Positions 4,622 to 31,859 of a stretch of DNA of 33,752 nt are shown here, one piece after another. The position numbers and the translations under genes were made by a program. The notes under the pieces were generated by a model. It did not search any database. It worked only from the letters and a program-made list of their open reading frames with translations, and had not been told where the DNA came from. This DNA comes from a virus. The stretch lies in the IMG/VR virus record IMGVR_UViG_3300009149_000147, positions 1-33,752 of that record; one strand, given 5' to 3'. How positions within the stretch are numbered: the stretch's first letter is position 1; each line of letters starts with the position of its first letter.

Positions 4622-7600
4622 TCAATTAATTGTAAAAGTTTGGATGCTTCGGTAAACTTGTAATGCTTTTGTGACTTCTTGTTCAACTATTTTTTTGTCC
4701 TGTTCGGTCATCGTTGTATACACATTATCAGGTTGTTGTACTGGATAACTTAGAATGTATTGTTTGGCTATTGATTGGTCAGTTGTAAGTCCGGACTTAA
4801 TATCTGATTCTAAACTAGCAAGGATGTTTTTTATTCTCAAAAATGCAAATTCTATAAAACTATCGAATGTTGTAAAACTTACAACTGGTAAATTATTTTC
4901 TGTTCCTCTTTTCACACAATAAAACTTACTATTTACAAAATTACTAAAAGAAGGACCATAGTTTTCTTTTAGATTTATTGTTGAGTAATTATTTTCGAAA
5001 CCTGTTATTTTAGAACTATTTCCCGTATCCATATATATAAAACTGAACAGTATACTAGTGTAGAGTTGGAAACTTTGATTTGTTTTTGGACCTACGTTTA
5101 ATTTGGTTAGTACATTAACGATTGTATCAAATAACTCCTTAGTTGTTTTAGATGTTGGAGTAGGAATCTCAATCGCAGTGTATTGTGAATATCTAGGATT
5201 CAAATTAGTTTGACAATCTTGTGATTTTGTAAGAGTTTCTTGTGCTTGTAAATTAGCTATAACGTTATTTTTTTGGAATAGTATATTATCGGAACCTTCT
5301 CTTAATTTTTGTTCTCTTTCTTGGATCTTAGTATTAATTGTCGATAATATCTTAACATTTAATGTTTGTATAAAATTGTCGATTCTTGGTAAACTATAGA
5401 ATGGTTGTCTTGTACCTTCAAAATGTGTTTCAAACCCATTTTCACTAACACTATGTGAAACTTTTGTAATCATATAAGGACCTGAGAACATAGGAATGTT
5501 TCTGATATTAAAATACATCATAGGTTGTATTAGGGCGTTACCCATCATATCCACACTACAAGTATAACTTCTATTTTTATATAGGTTATACAACGAAACT
5601 GATTGTGTTGTTGATCGTCTGTTTTTACCTAAATTTGCCATTTGATTTAACATCTCAAGTGATTCAGATGTTGGTTTACCTGGATCTTGAGAAACACTAA
5701 ATGATTTAAATATTTGTTGGTTTTGTCTTGTCATATCAACATTAAAACCAACCACCTTATTAGATTTTCCCCAATCTTGTTTATCAATTTGATTTTCAAT
5801 TAGAGGATTGTCGCTAGCTCTTCTTAAGTCAAACGCATCATCACGATACCTATAATCAATATTATCTTTCATATCTAAATGTTCACTTGGTTTGTTTACA
5901 TAATAACAAAGGAACTTAGGCGAACTATTTCTATAATCAACATTCAAAAATGTTCCAAATAACATATTACCAAATTCTAAACTACCGTCAGGTCTTGGTG
6001 TTGGGTTCTTTTGTGCGTCTTGTACATTATAAAAATTAACATACGCCGGTAACATAAAGTGTTGGAAGTTGTTTTGTACTAATATGGTGGTGACCATATC
6101 TAATAAAGTATTCTTATAATTGGCTCCGTCGATGAGGTCCATAATTTCAAAAATGTCAACCAATACTTTATCTCCAACATTTCGACTAGCTCTATCTACC
6201 AATAATACGTCTTCAAATAATGTTTTACTTTCAAAATCAAAACCTGCAATCCAACTATCATTAAGAGCTTTAAACGTTTCCCATAGTTCGGTTCTTGTTT
6301 GTTCGGTAAAACCAGCTTCTAAGTCGGCTCTATTTTGTGAATTATCTTCTTCAACAAACACATTAGGTAATTGTTTTCTTACCGCTGGTAACATAACATT
6401 TATAACGTTATTAATATAGTTGTCTGATTCTATAATATAGTCATCCATTAAACTATAAAAACTCGTGTAATTTAAATTAGGGTTAGTCAATTTTTGGGTT
6501 GCATATATCTTAATCAACGGGGCAAATTCTTGGACGTTCTTTTCGTTAAATAAAACATTTAGATCAACAAAGAAGTCTGTTATATAAGAACCACTATCTT
6601 TGTAGGCCAATTCAGGGATACTTGATTTACCAACATAGTATTCGAGAGCTTCCCATGATTTCGGGTTTTGTTGTTTAGATTGAGCTAAAGTAACACCACC
6701 ACCTTGTGTTGGTAATGATCCTTGAAAATATGGTCCGTATATAATTGGGTCCTCAATAAATCTAGTTGAGAACGTATAGAACAACCTTTTGTCAAAGTCT
6801 GATGGATTACCGTATTTGAACACCACATCATAATTCATAAATGATGTTAATATATTTTGGAATGTTTCATTTTGATTGGTTATCAGGCTTGAAAGTTTTG
6901 TTTCTGGTGATGTACCAGTTGGGACTTTCGCTTTAAACAATTGTCTCGCTAAGGTTTGGAAGTTTTTAAATGTCTGATCACTAACTTCATTTGCGTTGGT
7001 TTCAGTTTCAGTTGTATTTAAGTTACTTGCGGTTTGTGATGATGGTAAGGTATCAATAAAATCGTAAATTGATCTACTGAAATTTAAAAACTCAGACTCA
7101 AAATAATCTAATGTTTTGGTATTAAACGTTGTAAATAATTCTTGGAAATCTGTATAATCATTTTTATCTCCGCTTATAATGAAGTTTTGTTGATCCTTTT
7201 GTTCATTAAGTATTTTCTTAAGATATGTTTCAGGATCATTTTTAATTACTTTCGAATTGTCAAACCATCCGTATTGAGGTGCATTCCAAAATAATCTGAC
7301 AGAACCATTAAACATCGCTTCGTTACCTGAAAGTTCGGTACGCATAACACCATTCTTAAATGCTTCATCTTTTGTTTGATTTATATTGGTACCGAAAGAC
7401 GGCATTACATAACAAAAACTTGGTTCCGTAGATGATGAAACAACAACAGACCATGGAGACACTCTCATCGTTCTTGCAGGATTTGATGGGTCAAAACCTG
7501 GTGTTTCATAAATGGTTGAGTTTGTCGTATTCATCATTATTAAATTTCCACTATCCAAGTTGTTTTGGATTGAGGATGATGGAATACCTTGTATAAAACT

Positions 7601-10600
7601 ATTTTGGACGACGAACGCTGATGTTGTTGGTGTTTGACCTGTACCAATAATATAAAGACCAACACCACCTGTTGTTCCTGATATCTGACTTTGTATTGTA
7701 ACATTCCCATTTAAAAGAGGACCATTAATTATGGATCCATTAACTAACACATTACCATCAATACTATTGATTTGTAATGGTGGGTTAAGTGCGATAAAAT
7801 TTGATGTAAAAGCAGAAACGTTGTTAACTTTATACAAACCGTTTGAGTTTGTATCTCCACTAATTTGATTTACCACTGTTAATGGATATGGAAATGAAGA
7901 TCCCGTCAATATTAAACCATTCGATATTGACGCTAAACTAACGTTTGATAATTGAGCAAAACTTCCGATCGTAAAATCGAACGATGGTATCGTCGAAACA
8001 AATGTTGGTGTTGTGGTATAAACACCTGCACCTCCCGCAGTTCCTGAAACTTGACCAGTTACAACCAAGTTAACACCTACAGATGGTATTGTTATGGTAG
8101 TACCTGTTTGAATTAAGTTATTAGTAATTGAATTTACAGTGATGGTTGTACCATTACCACTACAACTACCGGTAACTTCAAATGCTGTGGTATTACCACT
8201 AATTTCTTGTACCGTACAATTACCTCCCGTTTGAGTTTTACCGCTAAACAATTTTAAACCTTGTAAGAAGACATTAAAGTCATCAACTAACTGAGGATAA
8301 AACCCTGTGTTGATATCGGTAAATGGTTGTGTTCCTGTTGTTGTATCTAAAACTAAATTTCTTGGTGTTCCATCAATTACTAAGTCGTAATTTTTGGTTG
8401 CCGCGGAATTTGCAGGATCCCAATTTTCTAAATAATTAAAGTCTTTCCAAACACTATCAAGGTAATCTACACCGGTGTCTCTATATGTTTTATATCTATT
8501 CCAAATTGATCCGTATTTTAATATCCAAGCATAAGGTAACTTATGAACCGCCCCGAATTTTTTCATCGTCGCCAAAATGTAACTCAAATCAGTTGTGGAT
8601 TCACCATTTTTGGTAACATATTTTTCTCTTAAGGTTGCTAAAGGTAAACTATTCAAGAATAGGTACGACGCAGTTTTATACGGATATGGATCGTTTTGTT
8701 TGTATCTAAAATTAAATACACCCTGTTGTACCGCATTAATAAAATACGGTGTATTCAACATCGATGTAGTTTGTGTTTCGGTTAAGTGATTTGTATAACC
8801 AGTATATTTTAAATTACCTTCGGTAACTAATTGGTTTTTATATGTTCTTGTATTATAAAAAGTTTTTAAGTTTGTAGTATCAGGAGTTACTGATAAGTTT
8901 TCAAAGTTAAAATAAGTGTAGGGTCTCTTCGTAGTTTCGTTATCATCGTTTTCGAAATTGGTTACCGTCTTATGAGTGTCATTATATTCCAAAACGTCTT
9001 TGGTATCAAAGGCTTCGTTTGCATTATTTAGACTTTTACCATTTGCCAAATTATCTCTATCCCATTTTAAATTTGTAATTGGGTAAACATCGGTAAAGTC
9101 AAAAGTATTACTACTAGATGATGAGGTTAAGTATTTCTCTAAGTTCGTAAGGTTTCTTGGGTTAGATAATGAAACATTTGGTTGTGATTTTGTAGAACTT
9201 AAGATGTCAGAATTATATACAACATTTGGGTTTTCTACGTCATTTCTAATATATGGTGTCACGAATGTACCTTTAATAAAAGTTTGCCAACTATCTCCTT
9301 GTCCTTGATTAGATATGTGTCTTAAGAATGGTAAATAATTATTACTATCTAAAAGATATTCTTTAATTTTTTTTGTTAGGAATGGATTATCTGCACCCAA
9401 ACTTTTTATTACGTTTACAGCTTCATCATCACCTTCGGCTTCATATATGGATAAATCATAACCAGATGTTCTGTTGAATTTACTATAATATGAATTCAAC
9501 ATGAGTCTTTCATATATTTCAAAAAAGTATTTTGATTCTTCTTTGTTTTGGAATACTTCGTTTGTTACTGGGAACTCAATCGCATTTAATGTTGCTCTTG
9601 ATGGTTGGTTATCTAAATCATTAAATTCTGCACCAACCTTATCATCAGTTTTTGTACGTTCTGTATATCCTTTAATGAATTGTTCTACAAACTCCACCTC
9701 AGGCCAAACTTCAGGACTATAAGCCCTATATGATGACGCAACATTTTGTGCTCCAGGATAAATTAATTCAAATTTTTCTTTCCCATCATCACCTACAGTT
9801 TCTTGGATAACTTGAGGCCAAGGATATATTGGTTCATTATTTTGTGTTGAGGATTTTATATCGACGCTTGGTGCTGTTGTTTGATTACCAAATATTGCGG
9901 CTCGTCTATAATCATTTTCTCTTTGTTCCCAAGCCTTCTTGTGAACATCATCTAACAATCTCAAAAATGCTTCACCCTGACAATAAAATACCGCCAAAAT
10001 ATTTCTAACCGAAGGAACAAACCCAAGACCTCCACTACCTCTTGCATTAAACTTTTCCGCCAAACTTGTTGTGATTTGTTGTTCTATTTTGGTTCTTAAT
10101 GTTGCCGCTTGTTTAGACATTCCGTCTGTTATTTCCATAAAAGATTTTAGTCCTTCGAAGTAATTGAATGTTGAGTTATTGGCAATAAAGGTAGTTTGTA
10201 AAGTAGTTATGAAGTTGTTATAAGCTATATCAACTTTTGTCTGTGCAGCAGGTGGTGTTCCAACTGGTGATAACTGTCCTTTTGGCGAATTCTCTTGAGC
10301 CTGAAACGTTTTATTAAAATCAACTTGATCTGTGTTTACCGAAACTCTAAAGGTTCCTGTTGTGATGTTAAATGGAATTTGTGTTTGTTCGGTAATGTTA
10401 CCGATAGTATAACTACCACCAACACCAAAAACCTTATTTTCATTTAGTCGAGCATTATATTCTTTTATAATTCCATCTAATTCAGTAAGAGCAGTTTCCC
10501 TTTGTTCGGGCGAATACTTTTTAAGGAAGTCATAAACCTTTTGACCACTCTTGAGTATTATTGGGTTTTTAATATCCATATAGGTATTAAACCATGATGT

Positions 10601-11671
10601 CGTAAATAAAAATACTTTTTGTTGGTATGATAACAACGTATTAGTATAGTCGGTCATAGTTGTCATGACACCCATATTTTCTTTGGTGAAGTCCGCTAAG
10701 ACCTCATCAATAAATCTTTGTAATCGGTATTTTAATTGATTAAGAGTTATCTCAGGAAAATCGTCAGGAATTAATCCTTTTGATTTATAGTTAGAGTAAA
10801 TCTCTTTCATCTTTTGATAACCCCTACTTACAACTGTAGGTGATGTTGCTGTTGTAGCGTCTGATGATGTACCTTGTTCTACCGTTGCAGGTGCTTGTGT
10901 TACCGTGTTGTTATACATATGTGGAACCGCCATCAAAGCCCCAAAGTTCACATAAGATAACAAAGTATATTTGTATCCGTAGAACTTTAAACTTATTATA
11001 AAGTTATGTGATGATGGATCAAATTTAGATGTAAATGACTGCAACATTATTGGGAACTTGATTGCCTTACCATAATAACCCTTTAATGTTAATGTAAATT
11101 GTGGGTATGGTAATTGGAAGAACGCAGCATATGGTGAATTGTTTCCACCTTCGAATAATGCTCGACCCTTTACGTCCTCAAGTTCAACCGTAATTACGGG
11201 TAAAAAATCTAAACCTATTGATACGTTAATACTTTTCATCCCCAAGAAACCATTATCCACAGCTCCCGGTGTTCCGTTTGAATTTAAGTTTTGTGTTATA
11301 TAAAAGTCGTCGGACTTATTAGGATTTTTAACCGCAGTTAAATTTACTTGGTTTACTCCCTTCCCCTGAACACTGTCTTTACCTGTGATCTCATCAGACC
11401 AAGCGGTATCCATAAAAGTTTTATGGCCTGGATTTAAGAAATTAATCTTACCAACCGAAATTGTTCGTTGTTGGTCATTCATGGCGGACCCTACCGCCAA
11501 CTTAGTTCGAGGTAATACATTACACTCAAGATTGGCATAATATACCAAATCTTCTTGTTTGACTAATCTTTCTTTTACATTACCATCTTGGTCTACTAAT
11601 TTATTTGGATCAATAAGGGTAATGTTGTCATAATCAAACTCAACTAAAATATTTTCCCCGTTATCTGCCAT
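4622..11671 (-). CDS. Giant baseplate hub-like structural protein (2349 aa)
   Basis: This is the largest gene here. Residues about 140-245 (INVSIGLDFLP, then LPYPQFTLTLKGYYGKAIKF) form a conserved beta-rich block that I associate from memory with phage baseplate proteins. Residues about 2035-2095 (SYTCSVDMMGNALIQP, then GPYMITKVSHSVSENGFET) match the pattern of the contractile-tail hub family (gpD/gp27/XkdQ type), where a metric-like beta domain ends with 'G-Y-x-V-x-x-V-x-H' and 'Gy-x-T'. Residues about 1150-1360 hold Gly/Thr-rich repeats (SGTAGGAGVY, SGDTNSNGLY, SGTTGGVGLY) spaced about 60 residues apart. The ATG overlaps the gp53-like gene by 11 bases, so translation is probably coupled. 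Assignment as a hub is inferred from the C-terminal pattern and location; the size far exceeds T4 gp27 (391 aa). Confidence 0.7.
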   Translation of the reverse strand: MADNGENILVEFDYDNITLIDPNKLVDQDGNVKERLVKQEDLVYYANLECNVLPRTKLAVGSAMNDQQRTISVGKINFLNPGHKTFMDTAWSDEITGKDSVQGKGVNQVNLTAVKNPNKSDDFYITQNLNSNGTPGAVDNGFLGMKSINVSIGLDFLPVITVELEDVKGRALFEGGNNSPYAAFFQLPYPQFTLTLKGYYGKAIKFPIMLQSFTSKFDPSSHNFIISLKFYGYKYTLLSYVNFGALMAVPHMYNNTVTQAPATVEQGTSSDATTATSPTVVSRGYQKMKEIYSNYKSKGLIPDDFPEITLNQLKYRLQRFIDEVLADFTKENMGVMTTMTDYTNTLLSYQQKVFLFTTSWFNTYMDIKNPIILKSGQKVYDFLKKYSPEQRETALTELDGIIKEYNARLNENKVFGVGGSYTIGNITEQTQIPFNITTGTFRVSVNTDQVDFNKTFQAQENSPKGQLSPVGTPPAAQTKVDIAYNNFITTLQTTFIANNSTFNYFEGLKSFMEITDGMSKQAATLRTKIEQQITTSLAEKFNARGSGGLGFVPSVRNILAVFYCQGEAFLRLLDDVHKKAWEQRENDYRRAAIFGNQTTAPSVDIKSSTQNNEPIYPWPQVIQETVGDDGKEKFELIYPGAQNVASSYRAYSPEVWPEVEFVEQFIKGYTERTKTDDKVGAEFNDLDNQPSRATLNAIEFPVTNEVFQNKEESKYFFEIYERLMLNSYYSKFNRTSGYDLSIYEAEGDDEAVNVIKSLGADNPFLTKKIKEYLLDSNNYLPFLRHISNQGQGDSWQTFIKGTFVTPYIRNDVENPNVVYNSDILSSTKSQPNVSLSNPRNLTNLEKYLTSSSSSNTFDFTDVYPITNLKWDRDNLANGKSLNNANEAFDTKDVLEYNDTHKTVTNFENDDNETTKRPYTYFNFENLSVTPDTTNLKTFYNTRTYKNQLVTEGNLKYTGYTNHLTETQTTSMLNTPYFINAVQQGVFNFRYKQNDPYPYKTASYLFLNSLPLATLREKYVTKNGESTTDLSYILATMKKFGAVHKLPYAWILKYGSIWNRYKTYRDTGVDYLDSVWKDFNYLENWDPANSAATKNYDLVIDGTPRNLVLDTTTGTQPFTDINTGFYPQLVDDFNVFLQGLKLFSGKTQTGGNCTVQEISGNTTAFEVTGSCSGNGTTITVNSITNNLIQTGTTITIPSVGVNLVVTGQVSGTAGGAGVYTTTPTFVSTIPSFDFTIGSFAQLSNVSLASISNGLILTGSSFPYPLTVVNQISGDTNSNGLYKVNNVSAFTSNFIALNPPLQINSIDGNVLVNGSIINGPLLNGNVTIQSQISGTTGGVGLYIIGTGQTPTTSAFVVQNSFIQGIPSSSIQNNLDSGNLIMMNTTNSTIYETPGFDPSNPARTMRVSPWSVVVSSSTEPSFCYVMPSFGTNINQTKDEAFKNGVMRTELSGNEAMFNGSVRLFWNAPQYGWFDNSKVIKNDPETYLKKILNEQKDQQNFIISGDKNDYTDFQELFTTFNTKTLDYFESEFLNFSRSIYDFIDTLPSSQTASNLNTTETETNANEVSDQTFKNFQTLARQLFKAKVPTGTSPETKLSSLITNQNETFQNILTSFMNYDVVFKYGNPSDFDKRLFYTFSTRFIEDPIIYGPYFQGSLPTQGGGVTLAQSKQQNPKSWEALEYYVGKSSIPELAYKDSGSYITDFFVDLNVLFNEKNVQEFAPLIKIYATQKLTNPNLNYTSFYSLMDDYIIESDNYINNVINVMLPAVRKQLPNVFVEEDNSQNRADLEAGFTEQTRTELWETFKALNDSWIAGFDFESKTLFEDVLLVDRASRNVGDKVLVDIFEIMDLIDGANYKNTLLDMVTTILVQNNFQHFMLPAYVNFYNVQDAQKNPTPRPDGSLEFGNMLFGTFLNVDYRNSSPKFLCYYVNKPSEHLDMKDNIDYRYRDDAFDLRRASDNPLIENQIDKQDWGKSNKVVGFNVDMTRQNQQIFKSFSVSQDPGKPTSESLEMLNQMANLGKNRRSTTQSVSLYNLYKNRSYTCSVDMMGNALIQPMMYFNIRNIPMFSGPYMITKVSHSVSENGFETHFEGTRQPFYSLPRIDNFIQTLNVKILSTINTKIQEREQKLREGSDNILFQKNNVIANLQAQETLTKSQDCQTNLNPRYSQYTAIEIPTPTSKTTKELFDTIVNVLTKLNVGPKTNQSFQLYTSILFSFIYMDTGNSSKITGFENNYSTINLKENYGPSFSNFVNSKFYCVKRGTENNLPVVSFTTFDSFIEFAFLRIKNILASLESDIKSGLTTDQSIAKQYILSYPVQQPDNVYTTMTEQDKKIVEQEVTKALQVYRSIQTFTIN

Positions 11672-21457: not shown

Positions 21458-24400
21458 TTATATATTCTCAAACGATGCTCCTGTCGGAGTAATGTAGAAT
21501 GTGATGTCGATGAATTCAAGTGACCTTGTAGGTTTGATGTAAATCTTACCTGTCAATTGGTTTCTGTCAATATCCTCAGGATCTGACGAAACTGTCACAC
21601 GGAAGTCAAATATACCACGATCTCTTCTGATCGCATCTAAGATTGGGTTAACCGCATTTAAGAAGTCTTGTCTAACTTGTGCGTCGTTTTGTTCAAACAA
21701 TAGTCTTACAGATACTGCTGAAATCAATTTACGAGTTTGTAATAACAATCTTCTTACGTTGATTCTGTCAAGAGCAGACTCTCTAACTTGTAGAGTTTTG
21801 TTACCCCAAATTACCGTACCTACATCTGAGAAGGTTGCAATTGGGTTAATTCTACCTACATAAAGAATGTCTCTATCTTCTTGAGTCAACTTCTTACGAG
21901 CTTTAACACAGTTAACAATACCACGAGTGTAACCAGCCGCTGCGAACCATGGGAACGCAATGTTATCTGTCAACGCCAAGTTTCTTGTTACCTCAGCCGT
22001 CGGTGGGATATAGATTTGAGTATTGTTTACACTATCTCTTGTTAATACCCATGGGTAATAAGTTGCCGTGTAGTTAGAGTCAATTCCTGTATTTTCTAAG
22101 TTATCAACCGCTTCAGTTGGGTAGATTAAGAAATCTTGACCATTTAAGTTAGGAACATACATATCCACGTCAGGTGTTGTACACACGTAAAGTGAATCCG
22201 CTCTGTTAAACTCGATCATCTCAACCGCCGCTTCTACAAGGTTACTGTTATTTACATAATCAATACCAGGTGTAACAAATACGTTGATGTTTGTTGCTTC
22301 AGGGTTTGCAAATGTTTGTTGACCTAACAAGTATGCGTAGTAGTCAGAGTTCGCAAAGTTTTGAGTTCCGTCACCAAGAGAAATCTCTTTGAATGCTCCC
22401 CATCCTGTGGCGTTAGGGTATCTTGTAGAAGGACAAGCCCCTCTTAAGAATCCACTTCTACCAATTTGGAATTGATCTGTATTTGTTCTAAACTCTCTAT
22501 AGATGTCCCAACCATCGAAACCACCTTGTACTAAGAATGTGAACTTACGAGCGAACAATCTGTAGTAAGCATTTGTTGGTGATTCAGGATCTGTAATGAA
22601 CGGTGAGTTTCCACAGATAAATCTTGGGTCTCCCGATGTTGAGAACTCAGGACCGATTGTTAGACCACTTGCATTTACATCCATGTGGAAACCAGCAGAT
22701 CTGTAATTAAATGGTAAACCATCGATATCACAAGAGTTGATTGGATTTCTCTTACCAACATATTCGAAGTAAGCAGGGTCCCAACCTAAACTATTGGATA
22801 TACCTAAGTAAGTTCTTCTTACATTATCTCCTGGGCTAACCAAAGCGTTATCATTACCTGAAGATAAACCAAACGGTGGGTTGTAAATAACTTCACCAGG
22901 GAAGTCATACTTACCTTTGATAATCGGGAATGGTGAACTAGCACCTGCATAATTTCTAAAGTTGAATCCGTTGAATCCGCAAGGTAAAGCATCTATCGGT
23001 GCATCCTCACTCATTTCAACCATTACATACTTAGAGTTTAACAAGTATTCTCCGTCTAATGTACCAATTTTGTTACCGATAAAGTTGTTTTGTCCTGGAT
23101 CCATAGTACAGTTTGTAAATTTCTCAAGTACTACAGGATTTGCATCTGTATCAAAATAATCACGGATCAATACGTCAAACGTTAAATTGTTGTATGTTTG
23201 ATTGATAATTGAAACTTTAATTAATGTGTTTGCTCCGTCACCATCAGAAACTGTGTAGAATCTAAACAAGTCATAAACTTTGTTACCTCTTAATTCAGAA
23301 ACAACGTATGGTGATGCTGGTGTTTGCCATTTGTCTAAGTACCAACCAATTGAGTCAGGATCTCCGCTTTGTGCTGAGTCTAAAGCAATTAGGTTAGGGT
23401 TAAGACCTTTGATATAACCTTTTCTCCAAGAGTAGTTCAAGAATGATTGGAATACTTCCTCAGCAAAAACAGGAACCTCGATTCGTGGTTTTTGGAAGTT
23501 AGTAATACCAAATACTTTAGTGAAATATTCGGGATCGTTTTGTGTAAGTGACGTCTCAAAGTTGTAAGCCGTACCGAACTTATCAACCACATTTACTGCG
23601 AATGTTAAATAAGGGTTTTTAAGAACTCCAGCGTATTGACCTGTCATATCTAAAGTCACATCTGATGTCCCTGTTACTGAGTAAGTTGGGTTAGTATCAG
23701 TTGTGTAAGTAGAAATACCTCTTGATCTTAAAGTACCAACAACAACATTATCATAATCAACATAAGAAGTACCTGTGTAATAGTAGATCTTACCAACGAT
23801 AGTATCTGAATAACAGTCGATGTTAACTGGTGTAGGAGTTGGTGTGGGTGATGTGAAAGGTGATGGTGTAATACAAGGATTTACAAATGAAGGTGTAGGA
23901 GTTGGTGATGCCGTAACCCCTGGTGTTGGTGTAGGGTTAGGGAAGTAAGCTGTCAATCCTGATACATAAGTAAAGAATGAGAAACCTGAATAATTTGTAT
24001 TACCATTATTGTTAAATAATGCGTAGTACCAAGAGTCATTAAATGCTGAATTCAAATCAGTATCGTCGAAAGAAACTGAAGGAACCTCAAATACGTTAGT
24101 TTCAGCACTAAATCCTGAACCACTTAATACATCATAATCGTCAGTCGCAATAGAACCGAAGTAAGCGATTTGTTCGTCTTCTGCGGTATATGGGTTAGTA
24201 CTTGTAATTACGTTAAATACTAAGTTTTGGATTTGGTCGTTAAGAGTTGAGGTGTCACCATTAAACTCTTCATATTGAGATAATAATAGATCCTCGATTT
24301 CTGACGGGAATGAAGTTAAATACTCGATTGTTCCTGAGTCATTTGTACAACCTGTAAATTGTACCGTAAATGTTAATTCTTTTGGTGTTACACAAGTAGT

Positions 24401-24808
24401 TACACAAGTTGTAAAATCTGTTACAGAACTCAAACACCATACATCGATAGTGGTTGGGTCTACGTTTGCAACCGTTGTGATTGACCAAGATGGTCCTGCA
24501 TCATACCCTGATAGACCAAGAATTCTAGTTACAAACAATTGGTTAGATTGTTGTAAATATGCTTTTGCGATATACGCGGCTTCGTACTTTGGAATCTGTG
24601 TATTAACAAATTTTTCAGGTGAAGTTCCCCCAAATACGGTTTGGAATTCATTAAAACTTGTAATAAAGATTGGTTCAAAAGCCGGTCCTATCAGAGTCTC
24701 TCCAGCAATACCCAAAGTTGTTACCCCAACACTTTGTGCTACAAAGCTTAAGTCAACCTCTGAAGTATAGACACCTGGTGAAACAAAAACCTTACTGTTT
24801 GTTGCCAT
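21458..24808 (-). CDS. 18: Tail sheath protein (gp18), enlarged
   Basis: A 1116-residue contractile sheath subunit. The ATG at 24808 (MATNSKVFVSPGVYTSEVD) is chosen over one 16 codons upstream because the 'SPGVY-x-x-E' start is the family norm and the late box lies before it. The N-terminal domain includes IAGETLIGPAFEP and FGGTSPEKF. The C-terminal domain is typical: GIVNCVKARKKLTQEDRDILY, INPIATFSDVGTVIWGNKTL, RRLLLQTRKLISAVS, and a closing LEFIDITFYITPTGASFENI. T4 gp18 has 659 residues, so about 450 extra residues sit in the middle, including a Pro/Thr-rich linker at residues about 288-328 with PTPTP repeats. These extra parts probably face outward on the tail surface. A strong terminator follows, matching a high-copy protein. 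Confidence 0.93.
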   Translation of the reverse strand: MATNSKVFVSPGVYTSEVDLSFVAQSVGVTTLGIAGETLIGPAFEPIFITSFNEFQTVFGGTSPEKFVNTQIPKYEAAYIAKAYLQQSNQLFVTRILGLSGYDAGPSWSITTVANVDPTTIDVWCLSSVTDFTTCVTTCVTPKELTFTVQFTGCTNDSGTIEYLTSFPSEIEDLLLSQYEEFNGDTSTLNDQIQNLVFNVITSTNPYTAEDEQIAYFGSIATDDYDVLSGSGFSAETNVFEVPSVSFDDTDLNSAFNDSWYYALFNNNGNTNYSGFSFFTYVSGLTAYFPNPTPTPGVTASPTPTPSFVNPCITPSPFTSPTPTPTPVNIDCYSDTIVGKIYYYTGTSYVDYDNVVVGTLRSRGISTYTTDTNPTYSVTGTSDVTLDMTGQYAGVLKNPYLTFAVNVVDKFGTAYNFETSLTQNDPEYFTKVFGITNFQKPRIEVPVFAEEVFQSFLNYSWRKGYIKGLNPNLIALDSAQSGDPDSIGWYLDKWQTPASPYVVSELRGNKVYDLFRFYTVSDGDGANTLIKVSIINQTYNNLTFDVLIRDYFDTDANPVVLEKFTNCTMDPGQNNFIGNKIGTLDGEYLLNSKYVMVEMSEDAPIDALPCGFNGFNFRNYAGASSPFPIIKGKYDFPGEVIYNPPFGLSSGNDNALVSPGDNVRRTYLGISNSLGWDPAYFEYVGKRNPINSCDIDGLPFNYRSAGFHMDVNASGLTIGPEFSTSGDPRFICGNSPFITDPESPTNAYYRLFARKFTFLVQGGFDGWDIYREFRTNTDQFQIGRSGFLRGACPSTRYPNATGWGAFKEISLGDGTQNFANSDYYAYLLGQQTFANPEATNINVFVTPGIDYVNNSNLVEAAVEMIEFNRADSLYVCTTPDVDMYVPNLNGQDFLIYPTEAVDNLENTGIDSNYTATYYPWVLTRDSVNNTQIYIPPTAEVTRNLALTDNIAFPWFAAAGYTRGIVNCVKARKKLTQEDRDILYVGRINPIATFSDVGTVIWGNKTLQVRESALDRINVRRLLLQTRKLISAVSVRLLFEQNDAQVRQDFLNAVNPILDAIRRDRGIFDFRVTVSSDPEDIDRNQLTGKIYIKPTRSLEFIDITFYITPTGASFENI
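23829..23907 (-). repeat. Short direct repeat coding for PTPTP linker in the sheath
   Basis: The 16-base sequence GGTGTAGGAGTTGGTG (plus-strand reading) occurs at 23829-23844 and 23892-23907, with looser GGTG units between and around. It encodes the Pro-Thr repeats of the sheath insertion and may expand or shrink by slippage. Confidence 0.7.
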
Positions 24809-24840
24809 ACTAAAAATTTCTTTTAATTTATTTATTTTCC

Positions 24841-24848
24841 TATAAATA
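24841..24848 (-). promoter_or_regulatory. 18: Candidate late promoter box TATTTATA before tail sheath
   Basis: TATTTATA on the minus strand ends 32 bases before the sheath ATG at 24808, in the context AGTATTTATAGGAAAAT. It lies 36 bases from a box of the same sequence reading the opposite way, so the region is a divergent promoter. Confidence 0.55.
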
Positions 24849-24884
24849 CTTCTCAAAACACGAAAAACTTTACATTATAGAAAG

Positions 24885-26698: not shown

Positions 26699-28468
26699 TT
26701 GGATAATACTAAAACACTTATAGAACATAAGGCTTTGGATTTGCTTGACTCGTATAGTGGTGCAAATAATTATATATTATACCTGAAAAACAAGAAGGAA
26801 GTCTCAAGTAAGTTTTACCCAACAAGAAATCAGGCAGAATATATTACAACTTATTATAACACCACACCAAAGGTGGCTCGTAAATGGGTTGAGTTAGACA
26901 CATACTTCGCTAAAAAGTTTGCAGAAGAAAGATATCTACTACAAGTTCCCGAACAAATATATATCGAAAAACTTTTGGTTGAAAAAGAAAAATCTTATCA
27001 CGTTTGGGGTAAGTTCTTTGAAAAAGATAAATTAAGTGAGTTTTGGGTTCCCAAGTCAGCACTTATTAAAACACATAAAGTTGAAAAGGTTGAAATTGAT
27101 TATTCAAAATATTCTCACCGACCGCCATTAGAACACCAAAAAATTGCTGTAGAAAAACTTGCAGGATCAAAAAGGTTTATATTAGCCGATGATATGGGTC
27201 TTGGTAAGACAACATCAACAATTCTTGCCGCTTTAGAGACAGGAGCAAAAAAGATTTTAATTGTTTGTCCGGCTTCTCTTAAGATCAACTGGCAGCGTGA
27301 GATTGAGAATTACTCGGATCGACCCGTGTTTATTGCCGAGGGTAAAAAATTTTCTACTGAACACGACTTTGTGATTGTGAATTATGATATTCTTAAAAAC
27401 TTCCACGACTCAGACCCAAAGAAAAAAGATGAGTCCCTATTATCACAAAGTGGGTTTGAGTTAGTTATATTAGACGAGGCTCACATGATCTCAAACGTCC
27501 AAGCACAAAGAACAAAGATTATTAATAGTTTTGCAAAGAAAGTTGATAGAGTTTGGTTGTTGACAGGAACACCTATGACTTCACGACCTATGAACTACTA
27601 CAACTTGCTAAACCTCATCGAAAGTCCCGTTGCTCAAAATTGGAAGGCGTACGCCATCCGTTATTGTCAAGGATTTCAGTTTACGGCAGGTAAAAGAAAG
27701 GTTTGGAATGTTATGGGTGCGTCAAACCTTGAGGAATTAAGAGACAGAACATCAAAACAAATTCTTCGTAGATTAAAAGAAGAGGTGTTAGATCTACCTG
27801 ATAAAATTATTACTCCTGTTTATTTGAGATTAAAATCAAAAGAATATGAAGATTTAATGGGTGAGTATTATGAATGGTATGATAAAAACCCCGATGAGTC
27901 ATCATCTCTTACGGTTCAGTTCTCTAAACTGATGAAAGTTAGAAAGGTAATAGCAAATGAAAAAACAAAACAAACAATCGACTTTGCCGAAAACATTTTA
28001 GAACAAGGTAAGAAAGTAATTATCTTCACGAACTTTACCGACACACTCCAAACAATCTACCAACACTTTGGTAAACAAGCGGTATATCTCGATGGTAGTT
28101 GTTCTAACTCAATGCGTCAACAGTCGGTTGACTCGTTTCAAAATGACGATAAGATCCGAGTATTTGTTGGGAACCTAAAGGCTGCTGGTGTTGGTTTAAC
28201 ATTAACCGCCGCTGAGGTTGTGATTATGAATGACCTATCATTTGTGCCTGCAGAACACGCACAAGCTGAAGACCGAGCATATCGTTATGGTCAAAAATCA
28301 AACGTATTGGTTTACTATCCCCTATTCGAAAATACCATCGAGGGCGCCATATATGACATACTAAACAAAAAGAAAAGGATCATAAACACGGTTATGGGAG
28401 ATGGTATTATTGAGAACCCTGGTGACGTGGCAGAGGAAATCCTTAAGCTAATCAATAAAAGGAGGTAA
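26699..28468 (+). CDS. SNF2-family helicase (UvsW/HARP-like)
   Basis: A 589-residue superfamily 2 helicase. Motifs: Walker A DDMGLGKTTS (Lys170), motif Ia IVCPASLKINWQRE, motif II DEAH at 259-262, motif III LLTGTP at 287-292, motif IV-like IIFTNF, motif V GVGLTLTAA, and motif VI QAEDRAYRYGQ at 522-532. DEAH plus 'R-x-x-R-x-GQ' is the SNF2 hallmark, close to SMARCAL1/HARP annealing helicases. T4 UvsW (503 aa) remodels forks and R-loops; this protein may fill that role with a different N-terminal domain (residues 1-135). The frame has no ATG near its beginning: the first usable start is TTG at 26699. The gene is on the plus strand, diverging from gp14. Confidence 0.9.
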   Translation: MDNTKTLIEHKALDLLDSYSGANNYILYLKNKKEVSSKFYPTRNQAEYITTYYNTTPKVARKWVELDTYFAKKFAEERYLLQVPEQIYIEKLLVEKEKSYHVWGKFFEKDKLSEFWVPKSALIKTHKVEKVEIDYSKYSHRPPLEHQKIAVEKLAGSKRFILADDMGLGKTTSTILAALETGAKKILIVCPASLKINWQREIENYSDRPVFIAEGKKFSTEHDFVIVNYDILKNFHDSDPKKKDESLLSQSGFELVILDEAHMISNVQAQRTKIINSFAKKVDRVWLLTGTPMTSRPMNYYNLLNLIESPVAQNWKAYAIRYCQGFQFTAGKRKVWNVMGASNLEELRDRTSKQILRRLKEEVLDLPDKIITPVYLRLKSKEYEDLMGEYYEWYDKNPDESSSLTVQFSKLMKVRKVIANEKTKQTIDFAENILEQGKKVIIFTNFTDTLQTIYQHFGKQAVYLDGSCSNSMRQQSVDSFQNDDKIRVFVGNLKAAGVGLTLTAAEVVIMNDLSFVPAEHAQAEDRAYRYGQKSNVLVYYPLFENTIEGAIYDILNKKKRIINTVMGDGIIENPGDVAEEILKLINKRR

Positions 28469-28485
28469 TCTTTTTATGATTGGAA

Positions 28486-28493
28486 TATTTATC
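28486..28493 (+). promoter_or_regulatory. Possible late promoter box TATTTATC before the SOD fusion
   Basis: TATTTATC ends only 4 bases before the ATG at 28498, closer than the other boxes. If active, transcription would start within or after the start codon region, so a leaderless message or a chance match are both possible. Confidence 0.25.
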
Positions 28494-28497
28494 AAAG

Positions 28498-30693
28498 ATG
28501 AAACTTTCAATCAAATACGAAAATCAAGATATTAAAGAACACAAAGACTTTGTGAGTGAGTTCATAAAACTCCTACAAAAAGAATATCCCTTAAAACAAG
28601 ATCTAAAAATTATCTTTATGGATGGTAAGAGGGGGGAGATGTCTACAGGTAGTAGACGTGGTGATAATCTTATTAAAGTTTTAGCAAAAGGTAGATTAAA
28701 TAGGGATATCATGAGGACTCTCGCACATGAGTGGGTTCATGAATATCAAATGACAATTTTAAATAGAAAACCTGGACCAAACATCGGTGGAAAAAATGAA
28801 GACGAAGCGAACGCATTTGCAGGTCGTTTGGTTAAGATGTTTGAAAAAGAACATCCTGAATTGGAAAAAATCATGTATGAAAGTAAAAGTATAAAAAGTC
28901 GGATCAATCTTTTATCCGAGCAAATACTTTTGACTGAGAAAAAAACTATTAAGGAAAGTTTGTTGGTTGAAATGAAAAAAATTGGTATTGAAAAACTACC
29001 GTACTCATATTCCGCATTACAAAGATTTATCGACTCTAGAACTATGAACATTCATTACAACAAACACTATAAGGGTTATGTTGATAAACTGAATAAGGCG
29101 ATTAAAGATAAAAAAGGTGATATGGATTTAGAAGAAATTATTAAATCCATTAGTAAGTTTGACGATAAAGTTAGAAATAATGCGGGGGGTGCTTTTAACC
29201 ACGCTTTGTTTTGGAAAATGTTATCACCAAAAAAACAATTACCAAAAGGTGAGATCTTAAAAAAGATTAGAGAAGATTTTGGTAACATCAAAAAACTAAA
29301 AGATGAATTTAACAAAGCGGCTCAGGATCGTTTTGGTTCAGGTTGGGCTTGGTTGTATTTGGCAAAAGATGGTAAATTAAAAATTATGTCCACACCTAAT
29401 CAGGACAATCCCCTAATGAATATTGTTAAGGGGGGTGGTTATCCATTACTTGGTCTTGATGTTTGGGAACACGCTTATTATCTGAAATACCAAAATAAAA
29501 GAGACGAATATATTTCTAAGTTTTGGGACGTGGTAAATTGGGAATTTGTTAATGACTTATTAATTAGTAGGACTTCTAAGAAAAAACTTAACGAGTCAAA
29601 TGAAATAAATGAAATAGCACTTAAACGAGATTCCAAAATAGATTATTTATGTCGACAATCAAAATCAAAAGAATCACCTTATTGTCAATTAAAAAATTTC
29701 AGAGATGGTTTAGAAGATGATTATTTGGTTACCGAATTAGAGCGTTCTATTTTTATATTAGACCAATTCTTTGCGATGAAAAATGTTGGTACGTTTCCCG
29801 TAATCATAAAATTAGCCCTCCAAGACACAAATAGAACTGTAAACTTTTTAGAGTTGGTTTCAGACTTTATTGTAGATAAAAAATATGATGACGACCAAGT
29901 AAAAAAAATATTAACCAAACAAAGATATTCCACCTCAATACCTAAAGATATTGAGGGGTTATTGGCTTATGCAAGACAAAAAGAACACAGTAAATATGAA
30001 GATAGATTTTCAGGTGAGTACTTTGAGAAAAAACCGACAAAATTACAATTGGATTATAAATGTTCTGATGACGCGAAAGAAACATTAATAGATGTGTTAA
30101 AACAAGTTCATTCTGGCACAGAGACTTTGGATTACACATTCTTTCAGATAACATCTTGTTTATCTAAATCATTTAAAAAAGGTAGTTATTATATAAAGGC
30201 CGATTTAATTACTAAACAAGATTTAAAAGATGAAAACGGTAAAGTTATATTTCCGAGTGGATCATTCTTTGAGGTTAAAAAAATGGACCCATTCATAGAT
30301 AGTTATTTATCAGAGTTCTTTTCCATTTTTAAACAAAGCTCACTATCAAGTGAAAAACCAATATATCTAAATCTATACAACGAATTAATTGATAAAATAT
30401 TTGTTTGGTTAAACACTAAACCTTCGGCTCAGGAATATCTCGATAAAGTTAGAAGTCAAATGTCGGGTATAATCTATGAGGGCGATTTAATTGTCCCTAT
30501 TAAATATATTGATTTATATTGGTCCAACAAAGGTCAAAGAGGTTGTGATGAAAAAAGACTATCAATAAGGTTTAGAATAAAACCCGAATATAGTAAAATT
30601 GATGGTTTCTTCTTTAGAGATAAAGATACTTTAGAATCAGTCACTTTGAATGTAAAATCAAAGGACAGAGAAAAGATCGTTTGTACTAACTAA
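28498..30693 (+). CDS. Metalloprotease-like / Fe-Mn superoxide dismutase / unknown-domain fusion protein
   Basis: A 731-residue protein from the ATG at 28498; a TTG six codons earlier is also open. Residues 1-135 look like a zincin: HEWVH at 77-81 and a downstream NEDEANAFAGR with Glu103 as possible third ligand. Residues 136-160 form a linker with LSE, LTE and LVE. Residues about 165-357 are a complete Fe/Mn superoxide dismutase: LPYSYSALQRFIDSRTMNIH with His186, GGAFNHALFW with His235, GSGWAWL, NQDNPL with Gln302 as in Mn-type enzymes, and LDVWEHAYYLKYQN with Asp321 and His325, then the closing NWEF. Residues 358-731 are unrecognised and rich in Lys, Asp and aromatic residues. The dismutase should convert superoxide to peroxide and oxygen. 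It is plus strand, between the helicase and a neck gene. No signal peptide is seen. Confidence 0.9.
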   Translation: MKLSIKYENQDIKEHKDFVSEFIKLLQKEYPLKQDLKIIFMDGKRGEMSTGSRRGDNLIKVLAKGRLNRDIMRTLAHEWVHEYQMTILNRKPGPNIGGKNEDEANAFAGRLVKMFEKEHPELEKIMYESKSIKSRINLLSEQILLTEKKTIKESLLVEMKKIGIEKLPYSYSALQRFIDSRTMNIHYNKHYKGYVDKLNKAIKDKKGDMDLEEIIKSISKFDDKVRNNAGGAFNHALFWKMLSPKKQLPKGEILKKIREDFGNIKKLKDEFNKAAQDRFGSGWAWLYLAKDGKLKIMSTPNQDNPLMNIVKGGGYPLLGLDVWEHAYYLKYQNKRDEYISKFWDVVNWEFVNDLLISRTSKKKLNESNEINEIALKRDSKIDYLCRQSKSKESPYCQLKNFRDGLEDDYLVTELERSIFILDQFFAMKNVGTFPVIIKLALQDTNRTVNFLELVSDFIVDKKYDDDQVKKILTKQRYSTSIPKDIEGLLAYARQKEHSKYEDRFSGEYFEKKPTKLQLDYKCSDDAKETLIDVLKQVHSGTETLDYTFFQITSCLSKSFKKGSYYIKADLITKQDLKDENGKVIFPSGSFFEVKKMDPFIDSYLSEFFSIFKQSSLSSEKPIYLNLYNELIDKIFVWLNTKPSAQEYLDKVRSQMSGIIYEGDLIVPIKYIDLYWSNKGQRGCDEKRLSIRFRIKPEYSKIDGFFFRDKDTLESVTLNVKSKDREKIVCTN

Positions 30694-30734: not shown

Positions 30735-31859
30735 ATGGCAATTATCAACGAACCAGAAAGAAGTGAATTCTACCAAAAAGTAAGACACCTTTTGGGTGCT
30801 CCTTTGAGATCGGTAGAATTAGAAGACGAGATGATGGATACTCTTTTAGAGTACTCTATTGATGATTATTCACAATACGTACAAGATTGGTTAATTGAAT
30901 CTCAGTGGACTTCTCTCTACAACTTAAACTTAGATACACAATCTTTAGCAAGAGCTTTCGTAACCAAGAGTTTAGATTTTGAAACGAGGTATACTTACGC
31001 GTATTCTAAGATCGTTGGTTTACAAGCTGGTGGTGATTGGGTAATCAAAAAAGATTACGTACAATTAGTACCCAACCAACAAATATATGAAATACCTGCG
31101 GGTAGAGAAATCAACGAAGTACTTTGGTTTTCACCCACAGAAATGAATAACATGTTTATCGACCCATGGTCTTTTGGTGGTATTGCCGGTGGTGGTATCG
31201 GAGGTACAGGTGGATTCGCTCAAATGGGTAATATGGCTGGTAGTTACTTCTTAATGCCGGCATTTGATATGTTATTGAGAATGCAAGAGATTAACATCCA
31301 AAGAAGAATTATTTCACCTGATTTAACTTATTATATCACCGCATTACCTGATGGTAAAAAAGCATTACACCTCTTAAATGTACCTGGTGGTAAATTTGAC
31401 TTCGGTAATGCAGAAATGGCACAACAAAGAGTTTGGTATTGGTATTATGATGTTGGTCAAGGAGATAGAGATAAGTGTTTGGCAGATAATCCTGACATCG
31501 TACTCTTACCATCTGATGTACCATTCAATAAAATAAGTTGGTATAAACTTAATAATCCAGCACAGATTTGGGTTAGAAGGTGGTTTACCGCATATTGTAA
31601 AGAAACTTTGGCAAGAGTTCGTGGTAAATTTAGTGGTAATCTTAAAGCACCTGACGGTGATTTAACTATGGATTACGCATCGTTATCTACTGAAGCTAAA
31701 GATGAAAAGACAAAATTGATTGACGAGTTGATAGGACCTGAAGGTAGGTTAACAAGATTACGTCCTGAAAAAATTATGGAGAGAGAAGCATTACTAGCGG
31801 AAAACTTAAACAAACAACTTAAGTTTAGAGCCATGCCTCGTCAAATATATGTAATATAA
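30735..31859 (+). CDS. gp13-like neck protein
   Basis: A 374-residue protein (T4 gp13 is 309 aa). The start, EFYQKVRHLLGAPLRSVELEDEMMDTLLE, has the 'hLG-x-P-x-x-VEL-x-D-x-q-x-x-x-x-i' helical pattern of gp13-type neck proteins. The middle holds an unusual Gly-rich insertion near residues 148-170 (GGIAGGGIGGTGG). The end, WVRRWFTAYCKETLARVRGK followed by LKAPDGDLTMDYASLSTEAK, is a conserved helical block that I associate with head-tail neck proteins. It would form the collar with the gp14-like protein, which is encoded 4 kb away on the opposite strand; in T4 the two genes are adjacent. The 116-residue gene follows after 4 bases. Confidence 0.72.
   Translation: MAIINEPERSEFYQKVRHLLGAPLRSVELEDEMMDTLLEYSIDDYSQYVQDWLIESQWTSLYNLNLDTQSLARAFVTKSLDFETRYTYAYSKIVGLQAGGDWVIKKDYVQLVPNQQIYEIPAGREINEVLWFSPTEMNNMFIDPWSFGGIAGGGIGGTGGFAQMGNMAGSYFLMPAFDMLLRMQEINIQRRIISPDLTYYITALPDGKKALHLLNVPGGKFDFGNAEMAQQRVWYWYYDVGQGDRDKCLADNPDIVLLPSDVPFNKISWYKLNNPAQIWVRRWFTAYCKETLARVRGKFSGNLKAPDGDLTMDYASLSTEAKDEKTKLIDELIGPEGRLTRLRPEKIMEREALLAENLNKQLKFRAMPRQIYVI

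Follow-up and report, generated by a model that had tools for sequence, protein, structure and literature searches.

The locus described here raises the question of why a tailed phage should encode a superoxide dismutase (SOD) as one part of a longer protein, and where such a protein would act. The locus lies in the window, a term used here for the whole stretch of DNA analysed (33,752 nucleotides, positions 1 to 33,752 of the IMG/VR virus record IMGVR_UViG_3300009149_000147). The gene and its SOD domain are as follows.

28498..30693, + strand: fusion gene of 731 aa, in the order zincin, linker 1, SOD, linker 2 and tail A; a single open frame with a conserved ATG, and relatives with the same architecture.
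28972..29571, + strand: Mn-type Fe/Mn SOD domain, residues 159-358 (H186, H190, Y194, H235, W283, Q302, D321, E324, H325, Y328).

The true start is ATG 28498, which is common to the relatives; the ORF caller begins the frame (28480-30693, + strand) at a TTG six codons upstream. The residue numbering of the first-pass annotation fits the ATG. Its placing of the SOD at residues of about 165-357 (28990-29568) is correct when counted from there, except that the SOD part begins at about residue 159.

Membership of the Fe/Mn SOD family is borne out by both Pfam profiles, Sod_Fe_N (9.3e-22; 77.7 bits against a cut-off of 27) and Sod_Fe_C (1.3e-40; 137.9 bits against 20.9). Both lie far over the curated cut-offs, and the matches span residues 171-359 in the TTG-start numbering. 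Structure prediction agrees, since the SOD part of the model aligns with solved SODs at Z scores of 18-19; when the full model was submitted to VIA-align, the alignment covered the SOD region only. The nearest PDB sequence found by phmmer is the MnSOD of Sphingobacterium sp. T2 (6gsc, 5e-68), with which the phage domain shares about half of its residues, the fold, the four ligands, the Gln in NQDNPL and the active-site Tyr, His and Trp. It differs in being one domain of a putative phage polyprotein, and in belonging to a single, long-branched phage clade.

The metal ligands named in the first pass (His186, His235, Asp321 and His325, with Gln302) are where they were said to be and are invariant in 41 relatives. 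The second-sphere and dimer-bridge residues Y194, H190, Q302, W283, E324 and Y328 are invariant as well. In eight pairs, the dN/dS of the SOD domain ranges from 0.028 to 0.063, which is lower than that of the tail in all eight and lower than that of the zincin in all but one. The invariant ligands and the low ratios together indicate strong purifying selection, as the earlier reading of the domain as selected had supposed, and they rule out a degraded SOD. Given the Pfam, PDB and model matches, the invariant active site and the low dN/dS, the domain is intact and selected. It would probably act as a dismutase, and it may protect the host cell during infection or the DNA on its entry.

The fusion is not a product of assembly. 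Metagenomes contain the same gene many times over: a first scan of IMG/VR gave 172 matching stretches, from which 79 loci were kept, and at least 571 IMG/VR stretches encode relatives. Since relatives at 60-100% identity occur on many independent contigs in the same gene order, an assembly chimera is ruled out. The flanking genes in the window are as follows.

26699..28468, + strand: SNF2-type helicase (phage DNA helicase), upstream of the fusion gene (Pfam SNF2-rel_dom 2e-31, phrog_62 3e-110); syntenic in relatives.
30735..31859, + strand: neck or head-tail adaptor protein, downstream, with a TATTTAT of its own (phrog_211 head-tail adaptor, 9e-10); syntenic in relatives.

The common order is sheath, two tail-region genes, SNF2 helicase, fusion, neck, a small gene and DNA polymerase, with occasional extra small ORFs. 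The T4-like virion-gene neighbourhood recognised in the first pass is thus confirmed, with the neck gene directly downstream and the sheath upstream. The slot between helicase and neck is filled in a graded series: nothing, a leader with SOD, zincin-linker-SOD, or zincin-linker-SOD-linker-tail. In a 292-kb relative it holds a short leader and a SOD without the zincin, the SOD being immediately preceded by IISE. In a 281-kb relative the helicase and neck genes adjoin, the slot is empty, and a SOD match is absent. The fusion protein belongs to a widespread family whose architecture varies, and its gene is a regular one throughout the phage group.

This position, immediately upstream of the neck gene or nearly so in the loci that extend far enough, would suit a structural protein of the neck or capsid whose SOD is a moonlighting dimerisation module. 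Such a role is very improbable. The 281-kb relative has a helicase and a neck with nothing between them, some other relatives do without the zincin or the tail, and the catalytic residues are strictly conserved.

Several neighbouring genes have peculiarities of their own. Some relatives have an SNF2 helicase that is interrupted at its Walker A lysine, where an intein-like insertion contains a homing endonuclease of the LAGLIDADG type (LAGLIDADG_3, 3e-11; L047:3567-5969, L021:3192-5561, and also L412); the window copy is uninterrupted. The tail sheath ORF of the window (21458-24856, - strand) has 1132 aa, of which only residues 844-1130 are recognisable as sheath, leaving a large N-terminal extension or insertion. 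A 2349-aa ORF in the tail/baseplate region (4622-11671, - strand) has no Pfam match. In one relative (L056) the fusion gene is present as two ORFs of 190 and 506 aa, which may reflect a frameshift, a sequencing error or a true split.

The first-pass annotation regarded SODs as rare in tailed phages, and as not known to be fused into a larger T4-like virion-region protein. The first half of this needs qualification, since standalone SODs are known from PA5oct-like jumbo phages and Vibrio phage 2.275.O. The second half stands: the zincin/SOD fusion is absent from 50,697 isolated-phage records and from the literature searched. The same collection yielded standalone SODs and one zincin-only match in a cyanophage. 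In PHROGs, the fusion protein and tail A match no family, and the other tails give only weak hits. The enzyme family is a known one, but its architecture at this locus is new. The jumbo-phage proteins (PA5oct EST35_0261 and Vibrio phage 2.275.O NVP2275O_049) are likewise Fe/Mn SODs with the four ligands, but they stand alone, are about 28-30% identical to the window SOD and belong to other phage lineages. Among the auxiliary genes listed for putative viruses of Microcystis there is also an Fe/Mn SOD (PMC12542629).

The phage SODs that were sampled fall into a single clade (100/100 support); its branch is long, and its neighbour is a SOD of the Bacteroidota. This makes a single acquisition likely; recent or repeated acquisition from bacteria is not supported. 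Because the nearest bacterial SODs are of this phylum, and Flavobacterium phages are among the nearest isolates by terminase, the hosts of this group of large T4-like phages are probably members of the Bacteroidota.

The remaining folded parts of the protein lie on either side of the SOD.

28498..28881, + strand: predicted HExxH zincin metallopeptidase domain, residues 1-128 (H77, E78, H81; E101/E103).
29623..30690, + strand: tail A, a C-terminal domain whose fold has no PDB match; absent or replaced in relatives.

Residues 1-128 are predicted to be a zincin metallopeptidase. The HExxH motif, here HEWxH, is followed by an ExE that offers a candidate third ligand (E101 or E103), and all five residues (H77, E78, H81, E101, E103) are invariant in the 41 relatives. 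By profile, the domain matches standalone zincins of cyanophages (hhalign 99.1%, 1.5e-18). The standalone homologue ends where linker 1 begins, which fixes the domain boundaries. Matches to named Pfam families are below the cut-offs (M78 15.7 bits against 22; SprT-like and DUF6055 also weak).

The C-terminal part is far less uniform. Clustering of the tails in 154 locus copies, some of them from the same contig, gave 50 of type A, 43 of type B and 22 of type C, with 39 short or absent; in the tailless copies (38 of 154) the chain ends 10-16 residues beyond the SOD. This scheme is a poor fit for a few tails of other kinds (L075, L299). In L075, the fusion has an unusual 177-aa tail and is followed by three successive 147-aa ORFs before the neck gene, possibly a tandem duplication. 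When types A, B and C were compared, no convincing homology was found past the linker. For tail A modelled alone, no fold in the PDB matched at E below 0.001; its one structural match is to a protein of 385 aa from an uncultured marine phage (E 2e-14). Tails A and C had no match in the isolated-phage collection, and tails B and C have no Pfam or PDB sequence match. Tail B has motif-like invariant residues (E, D, QVK), as does tail C (E, D, SxK), and on a reading of these motifs both resemble PD-(D/E)XK nucleases.

The protein thus unites several unrelated domains in one phage chain, namely the zincin, the SOD and one of several unrelated tails, as is typical of polyvalent proteins (PMC5512222). 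Several domains per chain, a zincin hub and interchangeable partners are common to both; the differences are that the survey mentions no SOD, and that the zincin family of the fusion may be another than theirs. It is conceivable that the product is an injected conflict effector of this type, whose zincin and variable tail attack the host at entry, while the SOD counters a host oxidative response or is mainly a stable dimer scaffold. Zincin-like peptidases are the commonest polyvalent-protein domains in phages and plasmids, and may process these proteins (PMC5512222). A fixed core with varying tails, two of them PD-(D/E)XK-like by motif, would fit as well. However, conservation of all the active-site residues of the SOD makes a pure scaffold unlikely, and a quarter of the locus copies carry no tail. 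This explanation is improbable as a whole.

The sequence just upstream of the gene bears on the time of its expression.

28486..28492, + strand: TATTTAT, late-promoter-like, just 5' of the start codon.

In the window, TATTTAT occurs at most 45 nt upstream of 7 out of 12 virion-type genes, as against none of the six replication genes (p 0.04). It is found at -12 in the fusion genes of 131 of the 154 relatives. In the head regions of four relatives, it precedes 32 of 62 genes, compared to about 0.02 expected per gene, and it also stands before the portal, terminase, protease and neck genes. The late sequence of T4 itself is TATAAAT (PMC3037559). TATTTAT may serve as a late promoter in this group.

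A late-type motif would also fit the main rival explanation, in which the product is neither cleaved nor packaged. It would then be a multi-domain enzyme present late in the infected cell, with the SOD limiting oxidative damage during replication and lysis, as the product of an auxiliary metabolic gene would, and with host or phage proteins as the targets of the zincin and tail. That the SOD is intact and selected agrees with this as well. What it leaves unexplained are the features of the two linkers.

28882..28971, + strand: linker 1, residues 129-158, with four L/I-x-E sites (LSE141, LTE147, IKE153, LVE158); low model confidence.
29572..29622, + strand: linker 2, residues 359-375, with LNE366 and INE372; low model confidence.

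In T4, the prohead protease gp21 cleaves after L/I-x-E, and the capsid-targeting propeptides have 10-19 residues (PMC9026906). The pLDDT is below 50 over residues 129-169 and 361-377. The ratio of observed to expected L/I-x-E is 1.78 in linker 1 and 2.71 in linker 2, against 0.37 in the zincin, 0.92 in the SOD and 0.90 in the tail; the expectation comes from shuffles, which ignore the shared ancestry of the sequences. Linker 1 has at least two such sites in all 26 representatives. Directly N-terminal to the SOD Met, [LI]xE is present in 87 of 92 unique cores, the remaining five having [MVF]xE, and every one of the 66 unique tailed forms has L/I-x-E at the SOD/tail junction. The motif is short, and linkers that are helical and rich in L and E favour it by composition. 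The large relatives encode Peptidase_S77 (gp21), a Gp23 capsid protein whose N-terminus bears a LINE-A site, and Portal_T4. The peptidase was found in 4 of the 11 large records of the group, a count that does not include the window record, a 33.7-kb fragment. One prohead protease gene of a relative lies at L085:10047-10775 on the - strand. This suggests that the linkers could be cut by the phage's own prohead protease.

Similar sites occur at the start of other proteins in these phages. In a 290-kb relative, 55% of the genes bearing the upstream motif have L/I-x-E in residues 5-30, versus 24% in residues 31-56 (p 5e-5). Short N-terminal leaders (MKIIITESQY, MxxLxxIIKKVIKES) are common to many unrelated late-type proteins (L371:4393-6829, L374:4606-6834, L377:5875-6444, and G002, the 290-kb record), which may make up a large group of cargo proteins targeted to the capsid. 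Related jumbo phages encode tail C and a tail B homologue as standalone near-neighbour genes, with L/I-x-E-like N-termini, and a lysozyme gene with an MRIIITES leader lies near them.

An uncleaved, unpackaged enzyme accounts neither for the concentration of L/I-x-E in two linkers, kept before the SOD where the zincin is missing, nor for the swapping of tails with standalone leader-bearing proteins. It is thus a possible but rather unlikely explanation. With its late-type motif and gp21-type linkers, the gene looks more like one whose product travels in the virion than like an ordinary auxiliary metabolic gene.

The preferred reading is that of a head-targeted polyprotein. It draws on TATTTAT, on gp21 in the large relatives, on the confinement of L/I-x-E to the linkers, on the IISE that is kept without the zincin, and on the leader-bearing standalone homologues of the tails. 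The polyprotein would be expressed late, and its L/I-x-E linkers would lead it into the prohead core, where a gp21-type prohead protease would cut it into zincin, SOD and, where present, the tail domain. The pieces would remain inside the capsid and pass into the next host together with the DNA. Superoxide would be removed by the SOD, either within the particle or as infection begins, and the targets of the zincin and tail would be those of the host. Late timing, packaging, cutting, delivery, dismutase activity and host are each what we infer. The core of this scheme, a late, head-targeted polyprotein cut by gp21 with its SOD loaded in the capsid and probably carried into the next host, could equally well prove right or wrong.

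A close parallel is with the internal proteins of T4, IPI-III and Alt (PMC9026906), which likewise combine a virion-type expression signal, L/I-x-E sites and a gp21-type protease in the same phage; those listed in that source include no SOD. In contrast to them, the fusion is a candidate for packaging, and its candidate sites are between domains. The N-terminal propeptide ending in L/I-x-E that marks T4 internal proteins was not found in the fusion protein, which begins with the zincin; the relatives do not share the IKE that it has at residues 12-14. That its own N-terminus is a folded zincin rather than a capsid-targeting leader counts against the polyprotein, as does the position of the standalone cyanophage zincins among replication genes.

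Other viral SODs offer limited guidance. The PA5oct SOD-like protein EST35_0261 (MK797984.1; L401:1453-2001) is annotated as hypothetical, keeps the four ligands and is marked ESI-MS/MS in its record, a distant hint of virion association. The hint is weakened because the same note is attached not only to structural proteins, but also to ribonucleotide reductase and thymidylate synthase. A precedent for a virus particle with a SOD is given by the virion-packaged Cu,Zn SODs of giant viruses (Megavirus SOD, cited in the review PMC9405923). These differ in their unrelated enzyme family, their eukaryotic hosts and the lack of a polyprotein.

In its fullest form, the proposal is that a tailed phage packages an active SOD as one piece of a polyprotein cleaved by the prohead protease, and delivers this SOD, a protease and a swappable third effector to its host. 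This is put forward tentatively, as something a little short of an even prospect. The phage group in question is known from hundreds of metagenomic contigs. If the domains are in the virion, prohead maturation would be a general route for loading cargo, and a single gene with internal cut sites could supply several enzymes, including an antioxidant. It would then become possible to test whether phage DNA meets oxidative stress as it enters, or whether the host responds oxidatively to infection. The linkers could then serve as a tool for loading proteins into capsids, and the family as a whole would represent a natural modular cargo system.
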